Below, one piece after another: positions 4,230 to 28,051 of a stretch of DNA of 64,000 nt (its first letter is position 1; every line of letters starts with the position of its first letter). The position numbers and the translations under genes were made by a program. Under the pieces are notes generated by a model. The model searched no databases. It was not told the DNA's origin and saw only the letters and a list, made by a program, of their open reading frames with translations. The stretch covers positions 186,001-250,000 of the forward strand of contig JAURXM010000131.1 of assembly GCA_030654395.1 (NCBI GenBank), read 5' to 3'. Source of the DNA: Aquabacterium sp. Its GTDB lineage: Bacteria > Pseudomonadota > Gammaproteobacteria > Burkholderiales > Burkholderiaceae_C.

Positions 4230-5072
4230 TCACCGGTTGTGGCGTGCCATGTAGACCAGTTTTTCAAACAAGCTGATGTCTTGCTCGTTTTTCAGCAAAG
4301 CGCCAACCAGAGGCGGCACGCTGACTTTGTCATCCTTGCTTTGCAGTACTTCAAGAGGAATCTCCTCTGCCAGCAACAGCTTGAGCCAATCGATCAACTC
4401 GGATGTGCTGGGCTTTTTCTTGAGACCCGGCAGGTTGCGTACTTCGTAGAAGTGGCGCATGGCCGCCGTGAGCAAGTCTTGCTTGATGTGGGGGAAGTGC
4501 ACCGCCACAATTTGCTGCATCACTGTGGCGTCAGGGAAACGGATGTAATGGAAGAAACACCGACGCAGGAAAGCGTCCGGCAGGTCTTTTTCATTGTTGG
4601 ATGTGATGATGACCAAGGGACGGTGCTTGGCCTTGACCAGTTGCCGCGTCTCGTACACATAGAACTCCATGCGGTCGATTTCACGCAAGAGGTCGTTGGG
4701 GAACTCGATATCGGCTTTATCGATTTCATCGATCAGGAGAGCGACCTGCTGGTCTGCGTCAAAAGCCTGCCACAACACCCCTTTGAGGATGTAGTTGTGG
4801 ATGTCCTTGACCTTTTCCTCACCCAATTGGCTGTCACGCAAACGACTGACAGCGTCGTATTCATATAAACCTTGCTGTGCTTTGGTGGTCGATTTGATGT
4901 GCCATTGCATCAGGGGCATGCCCAATGCTTCAGCAACTTGCTCGGCCAACATCGTCTTGCCGGTACCCGGTTCGCCCTTGACTAGCAAGGGACGCTGTAG
5001 CTTCAGCGCCGCATTGACGGCCAGCTTCAGGTCGTCTGTGGCCACATATTGATCGGTACCTTGGAATTTCAT
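4230..5072 (-). CDS. MoxR-family AAA+ ATPase
   Basis: 280 residues from the ATG at 5072 (MKFQGTDQYVATDD); an in-frame TTG at 5084 is less likely. The Walker A motif GEPGTGKT lies near residue 35 and Walker B as ALLIDEIDKAD near 110, followed by sensor-1 (VIITSNNEKDLPDAF). This is the MoxR subgroup, whose members act with VWA proteins as chaperones that mature or load cofactors into enzyme complexes. The VWA partner is at 1764-2936. The cytochrome c gene upstream is divergent. No catalytic residue appears missing. Confidence 0.88.
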   Translation of the reverse strand: MKFQGTDQYVATDDLKLAVNAALKLQRPLLVKGEPGTGKTMLAEQVAEALGMPLMQWHIKSTTKAQQGLYEYDAVSRLRDSQLGEEKVKDIHNYILKGVLWQAFDADQQVALLIDEIDKADIEFPNDLLREIDRMEFYVYETRQLVKAKHRPLVIITSNNEKDLPDAFLRRCFFHYIRFPDATVMQQIVAVHFPHIKQDLLTAAMRHFYEVRNLPGLKKKPSTSELIDWLKLLLAEEIPLEVLQSKDDKVSVPPLVGALLKNEQDISLFEKLVYMARHNR

Positions 5073-5909: not shown

Positions 5910-8198
5910 TCAAACCAGATCAACAAGCAACTTACCCTGCTCCAGCATCTTGGCCACAATTTGGGCATCCGTAGCGCCTGCGCCTAAGTCACCCAGACCT
6001 GTTCGGATGTTGACCCCTTCCAACACAATGCGACCGGTCTCAGTGGCGCTGGTCGCCACGCCAAGCAAAAAGCCCCCGTTGGAACTGATCTTGATCACGG
6101 TATTGGCCGTAGACGTATCGAACTCCAAGTAGTTTTGCAGATTGCCTGCGTTCTCCCCTTGGAGCAGATCACGCAAATCGAGCGTGTCGCCTCCAGCTGA
6201 AGGCACTGCCAAATCAAAATCTGTGATGCGGTCAACAGGATGGTGGGTAGCCAAAGCGCCATGGTCACTGAAACGCCATGCAAACACATCAGCGCCAGCC
6301 CCGCCAGTTAGCACATCGCTACCCGGCCCGCCCACCAACGTATCCGCCTCAGACGTACCCCTCAAAACCAGCGCGTGATCAAGCTCAATGACCAGACTGG
6401 ATGACACGCTATCGCCATCTTTATCGGCCAAAGCAAAAGTGAACGTCTCTTTGGCCACACCGGTCAACGCCTGTGGGCCGCTATAGGTGTAGAGACCCGT
6501 TGCCATGTCCACACTCAGGTCGCCGCCCAATGCGGTGTGCACTTTGAGCATCAATTGGCTTGCGTCGTAACCATGCTTCACCCCATCCACGGTGACGCTG
6601 TCAATGCGCCCAAATCCATCAGCACCCATCAAGGCCGTGGTCCTGAAGGTGCCACTCACCGCACCCTGATAGGTGTCGGCCAGCGTGCTGTCCAACTGAT
6701 TGAGACTGGTGACAACGATGCCCTCTAGATCGCCTTTGGTTTGACCATCGTGCGCGATCGGATTCAAGTAGGTTTTGGCGATACCGTTGCCCAAACCAAT
6801 GGCATGGCTCTTGATTTGATTGGCATCAAGGAACGCGATCCAAGCGGCCTCTTCAGCCACGTCGATGCCATCACCCAAATTGACCTGGGTTGTCGACCCG
6901 TTCTGCCCTTTTTTGCCTGCAACAGGGTTGGTGCTGGACAGCGTCGGATCGCCATCGGAGAAAAAGTAGGACACGTTTTGTGCCCCCGTCAACTTGCCAG
7001 CTGCAGTGGCAAAGGCGGCTTGAGCTTGGGACAAGGCATAGTCGTAATTGGTATTGCCATTGGCCACAAGGCCATCAAGCAGGCTTTTAGCCTGCTCGGC
7101 AGTCACCCAACTGTCGCCTTGCGTCTGCGATGTGGTGGAGAATGTCACCAGCCTGACAGCCAAACCACCCACATCTGCATATTGCTCAATCAGGTTATCA
7201 ATGGACTTGACTGCCGCTTGGAGGCGCGTCAGGCCATCAATACCACTGGGATCACTCATGCTGGCGGAGATGTCCAACACAATCATGAGGTTGGTATCAA
7301 TGGTTGTGAGTGATTGGACGATGGCATCTGGCGCCACAGGCGCATCATCCTCGACGCTGATGCTCAGCTTAGATGTCACGGTGCGTTCGCCATCGCTGAC
7401 CTTCACCCCAAAGTCAATGGTGACAGCGTCTTCGCCTTGCGCACCCTGCTTGAGTGGAGAGAGCAGTGTGAATGTGTAGCGACCAGTGGCATCAACCTCC
7501 ACGGTCGCCACGATGGGGGAATCTGCTTGCAGACCGGATTGGCCAATCAATCCGCCACGCCCATCACTCACCCAGTTGACCTGGGTGCCATCGGCGGCGA
7601 ATACCGCCGCACCGGGGGGCAACAAAGTGACGGTCAAGGCGTTGGCACCGGGATCACTGATCACCAATTGGCCTGTGACGCTGGTCTTGTCTGTTGTGTC
7701 CGGTGAGCCCTTGTTGTCAGTGACACCACCTTGAAGCCCTTCTTCAGACGCGCTGGCAAAGCCGTCCCCAACGGTGAATACGATGCCCACACCGTTTGAG
7801 TCTGCGGCACGCCCAACAGGTGGCGTAGGCGGCACCCGCTCCGTACCAAAACTGAATTCCAATTGACCGACAGACTCTACAACCCGATCAACGCGCAAGC
7901 CGGGCACCAAGCCACCATCAGTCCCGCCAGTCAGGCCAGCGGTCGGCGTCAAATCAGGGTCATCTCGATCAATCCCCGTGATGACCTTATCTGCATCAGA
8001 AGTCACGGCTTTGATGAGCACCGATGCGCCCTTGTCTGGCGATAGCTGTACGATGCCATCTACACTGGTCAGAATTTGCGCCCCTTGATCAACGTTGTCA
8101 CCAACCTTGATCGACTTGAGCCCGCCATCGGGGGATATGACGAAAGCTGTCCCCCACAAGGCGGTTACTTTCCCGGAGGACATGGCAAGAATCGGCAT
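5910..8198 (-). CDS. LapA-like mini-adhesin 1: retention module, VWA, RTX/T1SS C-terminus
   Basis: 762 residues. Order: an N-terminal retention module (MPILAMSSGKVTALWG to about residue 110, of the kind that plugs LapA-type adhesins in the outer-membrane pore); a VCBS/T1SS-143-like beta domain (about 150-285); a VWA domain (about 300-500) with intact MIDAS start [19 protein letters not shown]; a second beta domain; two RTX-like nonapeptides (VGGPGSDVLTGGAGADVF); and a type I secretion C-terminal target domain ending ...LLVDLV. It lacks a cleavable signal peptide, as expected for type I export. The usual dialanine LapG site is not seen; the region reads PTAGL. It is a paralogue of the gene at 9102-11516 and divergent from the regulator at 8456. 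The start MPILAMS is conserved in both. No transporter or LapG/LapD gene is in the window. Confidence 0.82.
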   Translation of the reverse strand: MPILAMSSGKVTALWGTAFVISPDGGLKSIKVGDNVDQGAQILTSVDGIVQLSPDKGASVLIKAVTSDADKVITGIDRDDPDLTPTAGLTGGTDGGLVPGLRVDRVVESVGQLEFSFGTERVPPTPPVGRAADSNGVGIVFTVGDGFASASEEGLQGGVTDNKGSPDTTDKTSVTGQLVISDPGANALTVTLLPPGAAVFAADGTQVNWVSDGRGGLIGQSGLQADSPIVATVEVDATGRYTFTLLSPLKQGAQGEDAVTIDFGVKVSDGERTVTSKLSISVEDDAPVAPDAIVQSLTTIDTNLMIVLDISASMSDPSGIDGLTRLQAAVKSIDNLIEQYADVGGLAVRLVTFSTTSQTQGDSWVTAEQAKSLLDGLVANGNTNYDYALSQAQAAFATAAGKLTGAQNVSYFFSDGDPTLSSTNPVAGKKGQNGSTTQVNLGDGIDVAEEAAWIAFLDANQIKSHAIGLGNGIAKTYLNPIAHDGQTKGDLEGIVVTSLNQLDSTLADTYQGAVSGTFRTTALMGADGFGRIDSVTVDGVKHGYDASQLMLKVHTALGGDLSVDMATGLYTYSGPQALTGVAKETFTFALADKDGDSVSSSLVIELDHALVLRGTSEADTLVGGPGSDVLTGGAGADVFAWRFSDHGALATHHPVDRITDFDLAVPSAGGDTLDLRDLLQGENAGNLQNYLEFDTSTANTVIKISSNGGFLLGVATSATETGRIVLEGVNIRTGLGDLGAGATDAQIVAKMLEQGKLLVDLV

Positions 8199-19084: not shown

Positions 19085-19411
19085 ATGTTGACCATCAATA
19101 AACTGCTACCCCAAGGCCAAGGCTTGGCCCCCGTGTTGATCAAACGTGCTGAGACCATTGAACTCAGCTTGGATGAGCATCAAAGAAACCGTTTCGATAC
19201 CACAGACAGCGCAGGCCGTGCGTTGGCGGTGTCACTGCCTGAAGGCACCGTGCTGCATGATGGTGACGTGCTGGTGGCCGAAGACGGCACCATGGTCCGC
19301 GTACTCGCAGCCCACGCACCAGCACCCACAAGAGGCAAACCCATCGGTATTGCGATCAAAGCCGCTGCCGCGCCGCATGTCCACGGCCCGGGATGCAAGC
19401 ACGATCACTGA
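19085..19411 (+). CDS. UreE-like nickel chaperone lacking the C-terminal domain
   Basis: 108 residues. The first 75 or so match the UreE N-terminal domain of betaproteobacteria (MLTINKLLPQGQGLAPVLIK, GTVLHDGDVLVAEDG). After VLAAHAP the usual metal-binding/dimerisation domain, some 60 residues, is absent. The protein jumps to a short basic segment and a His/Cys tail PHVHGPGCKHDH that could still bind nickel or zinc. No other urease gene is in the window. Either it is a trimmed nickel chaperone with a new client or a relic. Shine-Dalgarno AGGA supports translation. Confidence 0.7.
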   Translation: MLTINKLLPQGQGLAPVLIKRAETIELSLDEHQRNRFDTTDSAGRALAVSLPEGTVLHDGDVLVAEDGTMVRVLAAHAPAPTRGKPIGIAIKAAAAPHVHGPGCKHDH

Positions 19412-19416
19412 TGGCT

Positions 19417-20808
19417 TTAAAGCAGGCCCTTGCGCAGCGCTTGAATCAAGCTGGCGCTGTCCACATCGGGGCCGCATTGCTGGGCCAATAGGTCGATCAG
19501 GTGCTCAGGGTTGCGCGCTTGGGCCTGTGCCTTCTTGACGACCACCTTGGCGATCGGGCCCATGTGCTGCGTCAACACTTTGGTGGCATGCGCCACAAAT
19601 GCGTCCGGGATGGACTGCACCGAAGCGGCACTCACCGCACTGCGTGCAGCAGAACCGGTTGTGCCCAACTTGCTCACACTGGAGATAAAACGTGCGCGGT
19701 CCCCATCGGAGGGCACATGCTGCGCCACAGCCCCCACCAAGCTATCAAAATTCGCACTGGTGGCCACCGCTTTTTTGACCAAGATTTTGGCCAACGGCCC
19801 GACAAAACTGGCCAGCGCCCGCTCCAAGGTGCTCAAGGCGTCTGCGTCCCAAAGACCCGACGCCACAGCGTGCGTTTGCGCCACCGTTTGCAAAAGCTGC
19901 GCGGCCGCCAGCGGCTCAACCACCGTCTCGTCACCCGTTAGCGCACCAAAAAGCGCAGCAGCACCGGACACAGACTTGGCCGCGTGCAGCCTGAGCGCCT
20001 CGCGGAACTCCCCCGCGCTGGTGTAACGGTCGAGCACCTTCTTGGCCAAGGCCTTCATCACCACCGTATCGACTTGCAAGTCGCGCTTCACAGTGGTCAG
20101 CGTGCTGGGTGCCGGTGGCTGCTCATTGAGCACCTTGTACATGATCTGCTCAGCGCCGCCCGAGAACGCACCTTGATTGGTCAGCAGGCGATAAAGCAAA
20201 GCACCTGCAGCAAAGATATCAACCCGCTGATCGATGTCCTCGCCCCTGTACTGCTCGGGCGCCATATAGCCGTGCGTGCCGATGGTCGAGGTAACTTGTG
20301 TGAGCGAGGCATCGCGGATGCGTGCAATGCCGAAATCGGTGATCTTCAATTGACCCGAACGCGTCAGAATCAAATTGGCTGGCTTGATATCGCGATGCCA
20401 AACGCCTTGCGCATGCGCGTAGTCCAGTGCGGCCAGCAACTGGTCCATCACCTGCAGCAGCACGGGCTCAGACATGATGCCATTGGCCGCCAGCACCTTC
20501 GATAAGTCTTGTCCTTCCACGAACTCCATCGCGATGAAGGCGGTATCACCGTCTTCACCATACTCATAGATGGACACGATGCCCGGATGCGTCAAGCGCC
20601 CTGCTGCTTGGGCCTCGTTGCGAAAGCGCGCCGCAATCAGGGCGACTTCGTTGTCGGCATCCACCAATGAGCGGTGAATGGTTTTGAGCGCCACGCGCCG
20701 CTGGATCACCGGGTCCGTGCCTTGGTACACCGTGCCCATGGCACCCACGCCCAAAACGCCATTTATCGCGTACTTGCCCAATTTGTCTGGGTGCGCGGCG
20801 GCCATCAA
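19417..20808 (-). CDS. eukaryotic-like Ser/Thr protein kinase with duplicated C-terminal module
   Basis: 463 residues. The kinase domain (13-275) is complete: glycine loop GVGAMGTVY, catalytic K42 (VALKTI), HRDIKPANL, DFG (ITDFGIAR) and activation segment GTHGYMAPEQY. There is no membrane helix, so it is cytosolic. After residue 290 come two copies of a module of about 60 residues, each with GP(L/I)AK(I/V)(L/V)VKKA followed by a helical stretch. The function of this tail is unknown to me. Its ATG overlaps the stop of the haem/HAMP sensor (ATGA), so kinase and sensor are made together. Confidence 0.88.
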   Translation of the reverse strand: MMAAAHPDKLGKYAINGVLGVGAMGTVYQGTDPVIQRRVALKTIHRSLVDADNEVALIAARFRNEAQAAGRLTHPGIVSIYEYGEDGDTAFIAMEFVEGQDLSKVLAANGIMSEPVLLQVMDQLLAALDYAHAQGVWHRDIKPANLILTRSGQLKITDFGIARIRDASLTQVTSTIGTHGYMAPEQYRGEDIDQRVDIFAAGALLYRLLTNQGAFSGGAEQIMYKVLNEQPPAPSTLTTVKRDLQVDTVVMKALAKKVLDRYTSAGEFREALRLHAAKSVSGAAALFGALTGDETVVEPLAAAQLLQTVAQTHAVASGLWDADALSTLERALASFVGPLAKILVKKAVATSANFDSLVGAVAQHVPSDGDRARFISSVSKLGTTGSAARSAVSAASVQSIPDAFVAHATKVLTQHMGPIAKVVVKKAQAQARNPEHLIDLLAQQCGPDVDSASLIQALRKGLL

Positions 20809-21677
20809 GCCTCCAACATCGCCATGGCGTGCGCCAAGCTCTTGCGCATGCGCGAGAACGAGTCTGACAAGACACCGATTTCATCCTTGGCCAGCACCTT
20901 GAAATCCGGCGCATCCATCTCGCCCAAGCTGACACGGTCGGCCAAAGCAGACAGACGCGTCACCGGCTGGATCACCAGCTTCCACAGCATCAGGTTGAGC
21001 GTGAGCCCGATCACCACGAACACAGCCGTCAGCAAAACCATCACAGTGAACCACGCCTTGTCTGCACGCTTCAAAGACAGTGACAGCGGCACCGACACCA
21101 CTTGCACGCCGACGGTTTCATTGAGACTCCAGCCAAAGCCATTGGCAGGGCCATATCGCTCGACCATCGTAGCTGGCGCGGCGGAGACCGTACTGTGGCA
21201 TTGCAAGCAAGCGGGCTGGGTGATGGTGATCGGGCGGGCAATGTAAAGGGCGCGGCCTGATGGCGTATCGCGTTGACCCACGATCTCTTTGGCTGAGGGA
21301 TCTTGTTTGAAGTGGGTGACGAGATCTGCCTCCCAATCTGACGCTCGGTCGCGCGGGTTGGTCGGGTTCAGCATCGCCGCTTTGTACGAGAAATCAGGGA
21401 ACTTGGCGCTCAAACCTTTGAGCACTTCGATGGCCGCAAACGAGGGCACAGACTGCGGCAAGAAGGTGTACTGCATTTGCGTTTGCAACAAAGGCGCCAC
21501 CTGCTGCGCCGTGTAGTTTCTGACCGCTTCGGCTTTCTCGATCATCAAGCCAGCGGTGTCGAGCACCTCTTGCTCGGCATTGGTTTGAAGCAGATCACGC
21601 GCAACGTAGCCAGACACGCCTAAGCCAGTCAAGAACACCAGCAAAAATGCCAAGTTGAATTTAAGGATGAGTTTCAT
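20805..21677 (-). CDS. c-haem (DUF3365/Tll0287-like) membrane sensor ending in HAMP
   Basis: 290 residues. Membrane helix 1 is at about 5-25. It is followed by a periplasmic DUF3365-type domain with a single haem-attachment motif CLQCH near residue 178, then helix 2 (about 208-232) and a HAMP domain to the end. No kinase, cyclase or methyl-accepting domain follows the HAMP, which is unusual. The next gene in the operon is a Ser/Thr kinase overlapping by four bases, so the output may be supplied in trans. A redox, NO or small-ligand sensing role is inferred from the haem. Confidence 0.82.
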   Translation of the reverse strand: MKLILKFNLAFLLVFLTGLGVSGYVARDLLQTNAEQEVLDTAGLMIEKAEAVRNYTAQQVAPLLQTQMQYTFLPQSVPSFAAIEVLKGLSAKFPDFSYKAAMLNPTNPRDRASDWEADLVTHFKQDPSAKEIVGQRDTPSGRALYIARPITITQPACLQCHSTVSAAPATMVERYGPANGFGWSLNETVGVQVVSVPLSLSLKRADKAWFTVMVLLTAVFVVIGLTLNLMLWKLVIQPVTRLSALADRVSLGEMDAPDFKVLAKDEIGVLSDSFSRMRKSLAHAMAMLEA

Positions 21678-22555
21678 GGTTGTTTGTAGTCAGTGGGTGC
21701 TTGCGGATGCAGCACACGTCGCCACTCAGGATGCGAGGTGAGTTGCGAGATAAGGCTGCTGCGAAAGGCATCGTCTTGCGCCAGCGCCTTCCATGTCACA
21801 GGGAAACGGGCCCGGATACGAGGCTCGGCGTTGAGCCAAGGCGCTGCGTCGGCATAACTCAGGCGCCCTGCGGGGCTCATGCTGACCTCTTTGCCTTTGT
21901 ACATCGCAGCGCGCGAAGGCAAGGTGTCCATGAACGCGCGCGGTACAGCCTGAATGAAGCTGGGCAATGGCCTAGGCAGGCTATCTGCCGCACCTTTGCT
22001 GTCGGCCAATAGGTATTGGCCGTGTACCAGCTGGGTCTGTGTGGCCTTGCCGTCTTTGCTTCGCACCGACAACAGGGCATCACCCGATCCAGCAAACACC
22101 TCAGTGGCTTTGCCTTGGATGCGCACGACCACGTCATGGGCCGTATGCAGCACATCCATCGACGCGGTGGCCAGCGGCAGCACAGCAGCGGGCGCCGGCT
22201 TGCTGCCTACAGCCACCTTGGCCCACCCTTCAAGCAAATAGGCTGCGGCGCCCTTGTCGCGTGGCAAGGGCCAAACAGGCCGAACAAGCAAGCGACTGGA
22301 TGGCCCTAAGTCGATGACCGTGCCGTCGTCAAACTCAAGACGCAAGAGCGCTGTTTTGGCCGTCGTCTGGATGATGTCCTCTGCATCAACGATGGCACCG
22401 GTGGCGGCGGCAAGCTTGGTGACCGCATGGATCACCACGGCATCACCATCGAGCATGGTGATCAAGGCCACACGGTCACGCGCACTAGCCTGACAAGGCC
22501 AAGCCAACATGGCCAGCAGCGCAAAGGGCCCGAACCAAGCGGGGAACAGTTTCAT
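21674..22555 (-). CDS. periplasmic FecR-domain protein
   Basis: 293 residues with signal peptide (…MLAWPCQASA). Residues about 30-125 match the FecR fold (DAEDIIQTTAKTALLRLEFD, then DGTVIDLGPSSRLLV). The C-terminal 120 residues are unassigned. Unlike classic FecR anti-sigma regulators it has no cytoplasmic segment and no adjacent ECF sigma factor. It is the first gene of a three-gene unit and overlaps the haem/HAMP sensor by ATGA, so it may present or modify the signal for that sensor. Confidence 0.78.
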   Translation of the reverse strand: MKLFPAWFGPFALLAMLAWPCQASARDRVALITMLDGDAVVIHAVTKLAAATGAIVDAEDIIQTTAKTALLRLEFDDGTVIDLGPSSRLLVRPVWPLPRDKGAAAYLLEGWAKVAVGSKPAPAAVLPLATASMDVLHTAHDVVVRIQGKATEVFAGSGDALLSVRSKDGKATQTQLVHGQYLLADSKGAADSLPRPLPSFIQAVPRAFMDTLPSRAAMYKGKEVSMSPAGRLSYADAAPWLNAEPRIRARFPVTWKALAQDDAFRSSLISQLTSHPEWRRVLHPQAPTDYKQP

Positions 22556-22805: not shown

Positions 22806-23681
22806 TCATAAGGTGATACCAGTGACTCGACGTCGAACGCAAGCGATTCCGATCAAGCCCATAGCCAAGATGACCCATGTCGATGGCTCCGGAACAGCTG
22901 CAATGTAGTCGTTGGCATTGATACCTTTGCGCAGTAGCGTCGTGACACTGACATCCAGGCTGCCGACCAGCATCCCAGTCAGCGCCGATTTTTCGAAGGG
23001 ACGCAAACCCAAGCCAGTCGCAAAATTATTCATCCCAAATTCGGTGAACTGAAGATCGGACAGGTGGCCATTCATGGTGATGGACGGGGGCAAGGCGTTA
23101 AAACCCACGGCCAATTCCTTGCCACCAGTGAAGCTGAACAGTGAGCCGGAACCGGTTAATTGACCGTTCATCCAAATATCGCCATTGATGGTGCCGGCTT
23201 GGAAATCGATATTCAAGTCGCCAAGGTCGAGCCTTTTCTTTGTCTTGCTGTTGTTAAATACCAAGGCAGAACCCATGGCTGAACCAGAAACAGCTTCGGT
23301 TGTGTTTTTGATGGTGGGCAGTGGCGGCACCCAAATGGCGGGCGAGTAGATGGGAATGGGCCAATTTGTGATCAACGTTCCAGGAACCCAATATCCGGGT
23401 TTGATACCGATTTCCGTGGTGTTCTTCACTGTTGCAGATGTCACGGGGAGGTTGAACACACCTTCACCGACCTTGCTGGCCTGACCTGCTGCCGACACTG
23501 ACGTGTTAATGATCGACAAACCATCCAGTGCCGCTTCGCTGAAGTTCATGCGGGCATTGGCTTGCAAGAACGTGGTTGGCAACGTTGGGGCTTCGATCGT
23601 GATGGATGTGGCCTGAGCCCAAAGAGGCACGCCAAGCATAGCGACCAAAAGCCAAGATTCAGTGGTGCGAAGGTACTTCAT
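22806..23681 (-). CDS. PEP-CTERM exported protein of unknown function
   Basis: 291 residues: signal peptide (…LWAQA), a Gly/Ser/Thr/Asn-rich middle that looks like beta structure, and a canonical PEP-CTERM tail (AVPEPSTWVILAMGLIGIAC followed by VRRR). Such proteins are processed by an exosortase and released or anchored at the surface, usually with exopolysaccharide. No exosortase gene is in the window. The middle region matches no family I know. It stands alone, with 156 bp of non-coding sequence upstream. Confidence 0.82.
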   Translation of the reverse strand: MKYLRTTESWLLVAMLGVPLWAQATSITIEAPTLPTTFLQANARMNFSEAALDGLSIINTSVSAAGQASKVGEGVFNLPVTSATVKNTTEIGIKPGYWVPGTLITNWPIPIYSPAIWVPPLPTIKNTTEAVSGSAMGSALVFNNSKTKKRLDLGDLNIDFQAGTINGDIWMNGQLTGSGSLFSFTGGKELAVGFNALPPSITMNGHLSDLQFTEFGMNNFATGLGLRPFEKSALTGMLVGSLDVSVTTLLRKGINANDYIAAVPEPSTWVILAMGLIGIACVRRRVTGITL

Positions 23682-26559: not shown

Positions 26560-27681
26560 TTATGACGACTTGCGGCGGCGATGTGTAGCCAAACCAACGA
26601 CAGCAAACCCTGCGAGCACCAATGCGTAGGTTTCTGGCTCAGGAACAGCAGCCGTATCAGCTGACATGATGAAGGCCCTGTTCTCGCCAGAGATTGAGTT
26701 CCACGCATGGCCCACGATAGACCCGCTATCGTTAACACCATACGCTCCCTGAAGAGACCACCCCGCACTGATCAAGCTGGAATCTAGGTATGTATTCAAG
26801 TCGGTGGCCGCTGTGCCGTTCCAGATGGTAGCGTAAGATTTCCAATTGGCGTCATAGTATCTACCGACGACTTGGCCGTTGTTATTGATACCCTCGGCAT
26901 AGCTCGCCTGACCACCAAGGGTGCCCAAGTCAGTGGCCACTGTGCCGTTCCAGATGGTGGCGTGTAACTTCCGACTTGCCGTATTGGAATAGCCGACGAC
27001 TTGGCCGTTGTTGTTGATGCCGGTGGCCATGCTATACCCTCCACCGAGGGTGCCCAAGTCAGTGATCACTGTGCCGTTCCAGATGGTGGCGTGAGTATCC
27101 CAATTGGCCGTACTGGAACTACCGACGACTTGGCCGTTGTTGTTGATGCCGGTGGCCATGCTATACCCTCCACCGAGGGTGCCCAAGTCAGTGGCCACTG
27201 TGCCGTTCCAGATGGTGGCGTGCTGATCACCATTGGCCGCATAGGAACCGCCTACGACTTGGCCGTTGTTATTGATACCATTGGCGTAGCTAAACGTTCC
27301 ACCAAGCGTACCCAAGTCGGTGGCCACTGTGCCGTTCCAGATGGTGGCGTGACTCTCCCCATTGGCTATAGGGGCGATGCCGACGACTTGACCGCTGTTG
27401 TTGATGCCGCTGGCGGAGCTCCCGTTTCCACCGAAGGTGCCCAAGTCAGTGGCCACTGTGCCGTTCCAGATGGTGGCATGCGGAGAGCCATTGGCCATAT
27501 TGGAAACGCCGACGACTTGGCCGTTGTTGTTGATGGCAAGGGCATGGCTGTCAACCCCGCTAAGCAGCGTTGTCGTGTATGTCGTCGCCCCAGCAAAACC
27601 GCTGAACGCGAATGACGCCATTGCAATGGCAAGTTTCCCGGTCAACGGTGTGACTAGACGAACAGCAGGACTAAAAAACAT
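26560..27681 (-). CDS. HAF-repeat PEP-CTERM exported protein
   Basis: 373 residues from the ATG at 27681, which has AAGGGG upstream; longer open frame to 28014 runs through the tRNA gene and is not real. It has a signal peptide (…FAFSGFAGA), then about six tandem 43-residue HAF repeats (GINNNGQVVG ... HATIWNGTVATDLGTLGG) and a PEP-CTERM tail (AVPEPETYALVLAGFAVVGL followed by ATHRRRK). HAF repeats form beta-propeller-like exported proteins of unknown role. The repeat units are very similar at DNA level, which points to recent internal duplication. Confidence 0.85.
   Translation of the reverse strand: MFFSPAVRLVTPLTGKLAIAMASFAFSGFAGATTYTTTLLSGVDSHALAINNNGQVVGVSNMANGSPHATIWNGTVATDLGTFGGNGSSASGINNSGQVVGIAPIANGESHATIWNGTVATDLGTLGGTFSYANGINNNGQVVGGSYAANGDQHATIWNGTVATDLGTLGGGYSMATGINNNGQVVGSSSTANWDTHATIWNGTVITDLGTLGGGYSMATGINNNGQVVGYSNTASRKLHATIWNGTVATDLGTLGGQASYAEGINNNGQVVGRYYDANWKSYATIWNGTAATDLNTYLDSSLISAGWSLQGAYGVNDSGSIVGHAWNSISGENRAFIMSADTAAVPEPETYALVLAGFAVVGLATHRRRKSS
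26800..27545 (-). repeat. tandem 129-bp coding repeats of the HAF protein
   Basis: The marker CCGACGAC (or CCTACGAC) recurs at 26864, 26993, 27122, 27251, 27380 and 27509, an exact 129-bp period (43 codons). About 70 bp from 26993 and from 27122 are identical, the strongest sign of recent unit duplication. Confidence 0.9.
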
Positions 27682-27852
27682 AAAACCCCTTGGATTTGTG
27701 TAGTTGTTGGCCTGAGCATTGTGCGTGTGGGCACCATGGCCACGATCACCCCATATGGGGGGGGGTAATTTCACCCGTGGTTTATGTAAAACGCACGCCG
27801 CTTGAGGCAACAAAAAACCCGCTATGCCAAGGGAGCATGCGGGACAAGTAGA

Positions 27853-27927
27853 TGGTGGCCCCGACAGGAATCGAACCTGTACTTGTCCCTTAGGAGGGGA
27901 CTGTGATATCCATTTCACCACGGAGCC
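27853..27927 (-). tRNA. tRNA-Arg (anticodon CCU)
   Basis: Reverse strand folds as a full cloverleaf: acceptor GGCTCCG/CGGGGCC, anticodon stem GTCCC/GGGAC with loop CTCCTAA (anticodon CCT), T-loop GGTTCGATTCC and encoded 3' CCA. The remainder of the 370-bp gap 27682-28051 holds no other gene. It contains an A/C-rich leader of the HAF gene and one copy of a 21-bp repeat at 27977. Confidence 0.97.
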
Positions 27928-27976
27928 AGCAAGGTCGCGATTGTGCCTCAGCTTGCTGACCATGGCTGCGTAGTGC

Positions 27977-27997
27977 GCAAAAACCATCAAGTTCTCG
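27977..27997. repeat. 21-bp dispersed repeat, copy 1
   Basis: Identical to 29769-29789 (core CCATCAAGTTCTCG preceded by GCAAAAA). It lies 50 bp beyond the 5' end of tRNA-Arg and before the DUF454 stop. The two copies bracket the DUF454 and AmpG-like genes. Confidence 0.8.
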
Positions 27998-28051
27998 TTT
28001 TGACCTCTCGCCAACTGATGCGCTGATCGACCTCAAAATCGGGTGTAGGTT

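Follow-up and report, generated by a model that had tools for sequence, protein, structure and literature searches.

How does a receptor pass on a signal when its polypeptide stops at the HAMP domain? HAMP domains have been studied mainly where an output is fused behind them, and signalling by HAMP-ended receptors such as the archaeal Af1503 is an open question. The same question is raised by an operon in a stretch of 64,000 nucleotides from Aquabacterium sp. (assembly GCA_030654395.1, contig JAURXM010000131.1, positions 186,001 to 250,000 of the forward strand), which we call the window and within which all positions for this operon are counted. Read on the minus strand from 22555 to 19417, the operon encodes a FecR-fold protein, a receptor with a predicted haem sensor that ends just behind its HAMP domain, and a Ser/Thr protein kinase. 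Our analysis indicates that it is a real and conserved split receptor kinase, for which we found no description in the literature searched. We propose, with a probability of roughly 0.7, that the kinase docks on the HAMP end of the receptor through STAC-like repeats at its own C-terminus. A split transmembrane receptor kinase was also what a sequence-only reading of the window, made by a model without database searches, had suggested, and it is still the best interpretation of the locus.

The receptor (20805..21677, minus strand) is a protein of 290 amino acids with the layout TM-sCache_heme (DUF3365/Tll0287)-TM-HAMP, where TM denotes a transmembrane helix; Pfam and 80 relatives agree that it carries no output domain. 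Its two membrane helices, read from the sequence by eye, lie at about residues 7-29 and 207-235. The sCache_heme sensor domain occupies residues 32-197 (21087..21584, minus; PF11845, Tll0287-like/DUF3365, E 3e-38) and contains the c-type haem attachment motif CLQCH at residues 157-161 (21195..21209, minus), which holds the only cysteines of the protein; in an alignment of 81 receptors, CxxCH is kept in every one. The HAMP domain spans residues 232-281 (20835..20984, minus; PF00672, E 3e-6), and nine residues after its match the protein stops. The periplasmic haem-binding domain and the HAMP without an output, both of which had been read from the letters beforehand, are thus borne out by the Pfam matches, the CLQCH motif and the position of the stop. 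The conserved post-HAMP tail RMRKSLAHAMAMLEA (20808..20852, minus) is the predicted docking end. Its R[ML]RxS motif stands behind the HAMP in 80 of the 81 receptors and in AF1503, whose tail reads RLRRS, as well as in three of five dCache-type receptors discussed below (L127, L168 and L169; not L125 or L126), and all 17 further readable HAMPs in the window genome lack it. This control was based on the 22 HAMP hits of that genome, four being unreadable and one of the 18 read being the window's own; it replaced a control drawn from neighbouring genes, where there were too few true HAMPs. Only one of the 22 hits belongs to a short frame that stops after its HAMP (294 codons; next shortest 443), and this single short HAMP-ending receptor is the neighbour of the genome's single repeat kinase (one of nine kinases).

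The kinase gene (19417..20805, minus; 462 amino acids from the ATG) encodes a PknB-like catalytic domain at 19984..20778 (minus), which a PDB sequence search matched to PknB residues 10-277. The Pfam Pkinase match has an E-value of 1e-50, the G-loop, VALK, HRDIKPAN, DFG and APE motifs are all present, and no hydrophobic helix is visible by eye, so the earlier call of a complete soluble Ser/Thr kinase stands as far as the catalytic domain is concerned; what it overlooked is a tandem repeat at the C-terminus. Two helical units of ~52 residues lie within kinase residues about 306-462: STAC-like repeat 1 at 19684..19836 (minus; profile A2, E 1.4e-18) and repeat 2 at 19447..19593 (minus; profile A2, E 7.7e-17), with the consensus LxxxExxLAxxxGPxAxVLVKxAAxxxxxxxxLxxxLAxxIPxxxxRxxFL. 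Among 77 aligned kinases, the G-loop, catalytic Lys, HRD and DFG are kept in 77, 76, 76 and 77, respectively, and APE/SPE in 68. Of the 78 kinases downstream of a receptor, 76 carry both repeats and the remaining two are truncated at contig edges. Pfam gave no convincing match for the repeat region of the window kinase (a single match at E 0.17, under its cut-off). The name DUF8082, considered for this repeat, was rejected, as no paper was found for it and the window repeats had no Pfam match to such a family at E 0.5.

This arrangement is conserved far beyond the window. A receptor-alignment scan of named genomes gave 422 relatives, and the best 80 by receptor similarity, which make up our set of 80 loci, come mostly from Burkholderiales according to their record titles (Aquabacterium, Rhizobacter, Piscinibacter, Xenophilus, Pseudacidovorax, Variovorax, Roseateles, Pelomonas and others). 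Without exception, their receptor genes stop shortly after the HAMP, at 290-294 codons with the stop counted, which rules out an output domain lost by a frameshift at this point. The next gene on the same strand is a kinase in 78 of them, at a median gap of 17 nt, and in the remaining two (L028, L051) the contig runs out; the neighbourhood conservation of DUF3365-HAMP beside a kinase, proposed in the sequence-only reading as a check, is therefore found, and its occurrence in many families and genera rules out an association unique to one genome. Within the window operon, the FecR and receptor genes overlap by the four nucleotides ATGA. The same overlap had been claimed for the receptor/kinase joint, which is instead GGAGGCTTGATGGCC (TTGATG preceded by GGAGG), an overlap of 1 nt with the ATG start or of 4 nt (TTGA) with a TTG start. 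Beyond the three core genes, no neighbour cluster occurs in more than 12 of the 80 loci, and no conserved downstream target gene was seen among them. The close receptor (E < 1e-100) is patchy in the genus of the window, being present in 5 of 37 genomes, its own included.

The co-occurrence of receptor and repeat was quantified with a receptor profile (A1) and a repeat profile (A2), which were built from loci with adjacent genes and searched separately and genome-wide. In 369 genomes of the class, a sample that spans 272 genera, the HAMP-terminated sCache_heme class occurs in 29 and the repeat in 31: 27 have both, two the receptor only, four the repeat only and 336 neither (Fisher p 2e-34, a value that ignores kinship among genomes and is in truth less extreme). 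The cut for the HAMP-terminated class (E<1e-30) was chosen after seeing the list, and one contig-edge fragment (G147:C255) was added by hand. Thirty of the 36 repeat-bearing open reading frames (ORFs) lie within 2.5 kb of a receptor on the same strand; among the other six, three stand beside a dCache_1-HAMP receptor, two are at contig ends (G350, G352:C196), and one (G345) is 260 kb from the receptor. Conversely, an adjacent repeat was found for 28 of the 33 receptor ORFs of the HAMP-terminated class, and the repeat is present in none of the eight genomes with only weaker receptor matches. In a phylum-wide sample of 398 genomes, the repeat occurs in five and, besides the window's own, all four are kinases adjoining the receptor. 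The common factor of these loci is the tandem docking-type repeat and not FecR.

The partners attached to this pair can be exchanged. In class-level relatives, the receptor adjoins proteins that share only the repeat unit with the kinase. Some are class III cyclases: the Pfam Guanylate_cyc match passes its cut-off for L094, L096 and L118 and falls short of it for L098 and L123, and L095 is taken to be a cyclase because it resembles L094. Others are small proteins in which the repeat is joined to a half with a Pfam match under the cut-off, ACT-like in L117 and DUF4388 in L120 (same place as L132). The sensor differs as well: in G074, G102 and G373 the repeat is present and the sCache_heme receptor absent, and the repeat protein adjoins a dCache_1-TM-HAMP protein that stops after its HAMP. 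This led to the prediction that new repeat matches should adjoin HAMP-terminated receptors. When the profile was widened (A5), new loci appeared at G092, G222 and G274:C225, and the prediction held for two of the three (L168, L169), in which the receptor profile matched just TM2 and HAMP of the receptors. The third (L167) was a false positive on a CorA-like transporter, and a further short A5 match (G350:C113) is a contig-end fragment. The CorA-like and DUF4388-like names at L167, L168, L169, L125 and L126 were given by eye, and Pfam found no DUF4388 match for L125 and L126. As far as sequences can tell, sensor and output both change while the HAMP end and the repeat stay together.

To characterize the repeat, we modelled it in tandem with AlphaFold2 (predicted local distance difference test score, pLDDT, 79; predicted template modelling score, pTM, 0.42), which gave three helices per repeat, the first being long, the STAC fold itself being a four-helix bundle. 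A Foldseek search of 350,542 PDB chains placed two Af1502 chains at ranks 1 and 2 (probability 0.92 and 0.91, E 0.6), with the other listed matches at 0.20 or below. In PMC4834066, Af1502 is described as a STAC protein that is translationally coupled to Af1503, the HAMP-only receptor of Archaeoglobus fulgidus. Both partners coincide: the fold search with the repeat is led by Af1502, and the PDB sequence search with the window HAMP by the HAMP of AF1503 (E 2e-4). This coincidence is our main argument for the label STAC-like. The STAC motif xGPx(x)A between the first helices is also found, with GP invariant in A2 and A5, and the repeat shares the genomic coupling to a HAMP-only receptor (beside sCache_heme-HAMP in 30/36, beside dCache-HAMP in 3/36). 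This evidence is suggestive and does not make the repeat a proven STAC domain.

There are close parallels to known systems, each with clear differences. As presented in PMC4834066, Af1503/Af1502 resembles the window pair in that the receptor ends at its HAMP with an RLRRS tail and the partner gene is translationally coupled and carries the xGPxA motif; unlike our repeat, which occurs in two copies on a kinase (in other loci on a cyclase or other proteins), Af1502 is a stand-alone protein of 68 residues without an effector. In the SLC5-STAC histidine kinases (CbrA/CrbS), a STAC domain also stands between a membrane module and a kinase and is thought to couple them, but by the description in PMC13022988 it does so in cis, with a symporter and a histidine kinase, whereas here it would act in trans, with a HAMP receptor and a Ser/Thr kinase. 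The PknB/PASTA receptor kinases have the closest catalytic domain by PDB sequence search; the window kinase differs in lacking a PASTA match in Pfam and, as judged by eye, a membrane helix, and its input comes from another gene. The sequence-only reading knew of no characterized system of this composition, and our literature searches, with most subscription papers outside their reach, likewise turned up no account in which a HAMP-only receptor has a STAC-bearing kinase or cyclase as its partner. Parts of the composition do have precedents in PMC12889525 and PMC4834066.

In the mechanism that we propose, the membrane protein would sense in the periplasm through its predicted covalently bound haem, and the signal would travel along its second membrane helix to a HAMP whose end forms a short, conserved helix. 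The separate soluble kinase would dock on this end through its two C-terminal STAC-like repeats, a change in the state of the HAMP would switch or position it, and the kinase would then phosphorylate putative cytoplasmic targets. The sequences show the domains, the conserved lack of an output domain, the conserved gene pairing, the repeat, and sensors and outputs that change around a fixed HAMP end and repeat; the physical docking, the direction of signalling and the control of the kinase are what we infer. Several observations weigh against this proposal. The STAC assignment is weak by sequence, where Af1502 is not significant and comes first with A5 (E 0.094) and fourth with A2 (0.64) and A3 (0.48), and its Foldseek E-value is 0.6; PMC4834066 states that Af1502 itself is not found by sequence from other STAC proteins. 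Five of the 33 receptor ORFs lack an adjacent repeat, namely G345, whose repeat kinase is the one 260 kb away, G330:C143, with no kinase alongside, G402, which adjoins a convergent receiver-kinase without the repeat, G330:C355, whose kinase is cut by the contig end before the repeats, and G307, a truncated second copy. The repeat is likewise missing beside the cyanobacterial relatives L156 and L157. Receptor-kinase distances correlate no more than those of other operon pairs (all r 0.58-0.85; HAMP-repeat 0.67), which makes this mirror-tree comparison uninformative.

The operon could be coincidental, with a soluble kinase of the ordinary PknB type sharing a transcript with a haem redox protein to which it is unrelated; the catalytic domain is indeed ordinary and PknB-like, and nearly half of sCache_heme domains are stand-alone according to PMC12889525, but adjacency across many genera and the swaps of sensor and output make this very improbable. 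It is also conceivable that the kinase acts on the receptor, with the repeats bringing it to the HAMP tail as its substrate, such that the receptor is regulated by phosphorylation and is not the regulator. The RMRxS tail does have a conserved serine, and docking alone leaves the direction of signalling unfixed; however, the same receptors pair with repeat-bearing cyclases and other non-kinases, and a sensor needs an output, of which these receptors have none, and we regard this alternative as quite unlikely. A further alternative keeps the split architecture as proposed and concerns what is sensed. A published protein of the same layout, the sCache_heme-HAMP protein WP_033902098 of P. azotoformans, is reported in PMC12889525 to be a dimer with slow nitric oxide dissociation and no axial Cys; it has two TM helices, sCache_heme and HAMP with no further domain named (34.5 kDa as purified), and differs in that no partner gene is mentioned in the part available, the words 'serine', 'threonine' and 'FecR' being absent from the main text. 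The window receptor matches this nitric oxide-binding type of layout, with its HAMP fused and the extra axial cysteine missing, and 78 of the 81 receptors have no cysteine outside CxxCH, the other three having one at residue 22. Because the published protein binds nitric oxide and the axial cysteine is missing here, nitric oxide would by analogy be the likeliest ligand, a tentative best guess with the odds somewhat against it. The main alternative is the redox state of the haem, and that the receptor responds to this or to another ligand has not quite an even chance. A stand-alone relative behaves like a redox protein (PMC12889525), and one receptor of a repeat kinase, L163, has CxxCY instead of CxxCH; on the other side stand the tight hold on nitric oxide by the published TM-sCache_heme-TM-HAMP protein without axial Cys (same source) and the lack of further cysteines in most receptors.

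The target of the kinase raises one more possibility, which is that the operon is a dedicated regulator of the type VI secretion system (T6SS). PpkA, PppA and TagF form the threonine-phosphorylation pathway of this system, in which PpkA is a single transmembrane polypeptide with periplasmic input. The window operon would be a split counterpart, alike in combining a Ser/Thr kinase with periplasmic input and unlike in that its receptor and kinase are separate. Eight plasmid records cover at least 80% of the receptor, and six of these have the repeat kinase adjacent, while two, both cyanobacterial, have no repeat match. Five of the eight (three Caballeronia, one Paraburkholderia and one Skermanella) place the pair among tagF, tssM, tssH, tssBC or hcp, and a PP2C phosphatase is also present in two of these five. 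Across the 80 loci, a TagF query matched two and PP2C queries three, and TssH and TssB queries matched none. Class-wide, TssC is found in 10 of 31 genomes with the repeat versus 61 of 338 others (p 0.09, not significant), leaving 21 of the 31 carriers with no TssC match; the two TssC genes of the window genome are on other contigs, and 35 of 37 members of the genus have TssC irrespective of the receptor. T6SS as a general target is thus unsupported by co-occurrence and a dedicated T6SS role for the operon is unlikely, although a link can hold for some lineages only.

The first gene of the operon (21674..22555, minus) encodes a 293-amino-acid protein with a signal peptide recognized by eye. Its Pfam FecR match is marginal, passing the cut-off of 24 bits with 24.8 (E 3e-5), but the AlphaFold2 model, at a mean pLDDT of 91, has FecR/PupR-type proteins as all of its top four PDB matches (E 6e-6 to 1e-4). 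The FecR fold of the periplasmic partner, anticipated from the sequence, therefore held up; as a partner it is common and yet dispensable. FecR was detected upstream of the receptor in 61 of the 80 loci by a single-query search that divergent FecR proteins may escape, and with no match in the other 19 (one of which, L066, has only 242 bp upstream) we rejected it as a core component. No cytoplasmic anti-sigma domain was found in the protein, for which Pfam gave no other match, and there was no sigma factor among the four neighbouring genes scanned with Pfam, genes further out lying outside the scan. The FecR-fold protein is probably an accessory that would tune or stabilize the periplasmic part.

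Several variants of the receptor and its surroundings were noted alongside the survey, with positions counted in their own records. L163 (G750; 6650-7747, minus), the receptor mentioned above, is paired with a single-repeat kinase, and its motif reads CATCY, with the haem histidine replaced. L134 (G307; 4434-4964, minus) is a truncated second receptor copy, consisting of half the sensor and the HAMP, ~2.2 kb from the complete copy. At L118/L142 (G324), the receptor beside a cyclase-repeat protein lacks ~80 residues including the haem motif while TM2 and HAMP are kept, which could be a deletion or an assembly error. In L129 and L099 (G345), the receptor adjoins a gene that reads by eye as a sigma factor of the extracytoplasmic function (ECF) type. 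The same sensor also occurs with an output in cis, as L010 and L011 (one from a genome of the same order, one from the same genus) show sCache_heme fused to GGDEF by eye. In L009 (G023, same genus; 1-2376, minus), an sCache_heme protein with a degenerate HAMP lies directly before a small-conductance mechanosensitive channel of the MscS type, both read by eye; such a channel is another possible output for a HAMP-ended receptor. In the window, the kinase gene adjoins a plus-strand gene at 19085-19411 for a 108-residue protein with only the UreE N-terminal domain (Pfam) and a His-rich tail, HVHGPGCKHDH. On its other side, the operon adjoins a PEP-CTERM protein (Pfam) at 22806-23681 (minus), and a second protein at 26560-28014 (minus) has repeated GINNNGQVVG units and a PEP-CTERM-like end by eye.

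It is probable that the window operon is one version of a broader plug-in design that serves HAMP-only receptors. In its broadest form, the STAC-like repeat would be a general in-trans plug for HAMP domains in bacteria and archaea, and both ends could be exchanged: the sensor for a haem Cache, dCache or archaeal one, and the output for a Ser/Thr kinase, a class III cyclase or a DUF4388-like or ACT-like protein. The window operon would then be the kinase branch; we give this generalization an even chance. If true, it would explain how output-less receptors signal, including Af1503, which serves as a model for HAMP proteins. Because the candidate partner domain is fused here to enzymes of measurable activity, these naturally occurring pairs make the question testable. 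They also offer a candidate link by which nitric oxide or the redox state in the periplasm could lead to protein phosphorylation or cyclic nucleotides; it would span many Burkholderiales as well as some other Pseudomonadota and would extend to some T6SS loci.

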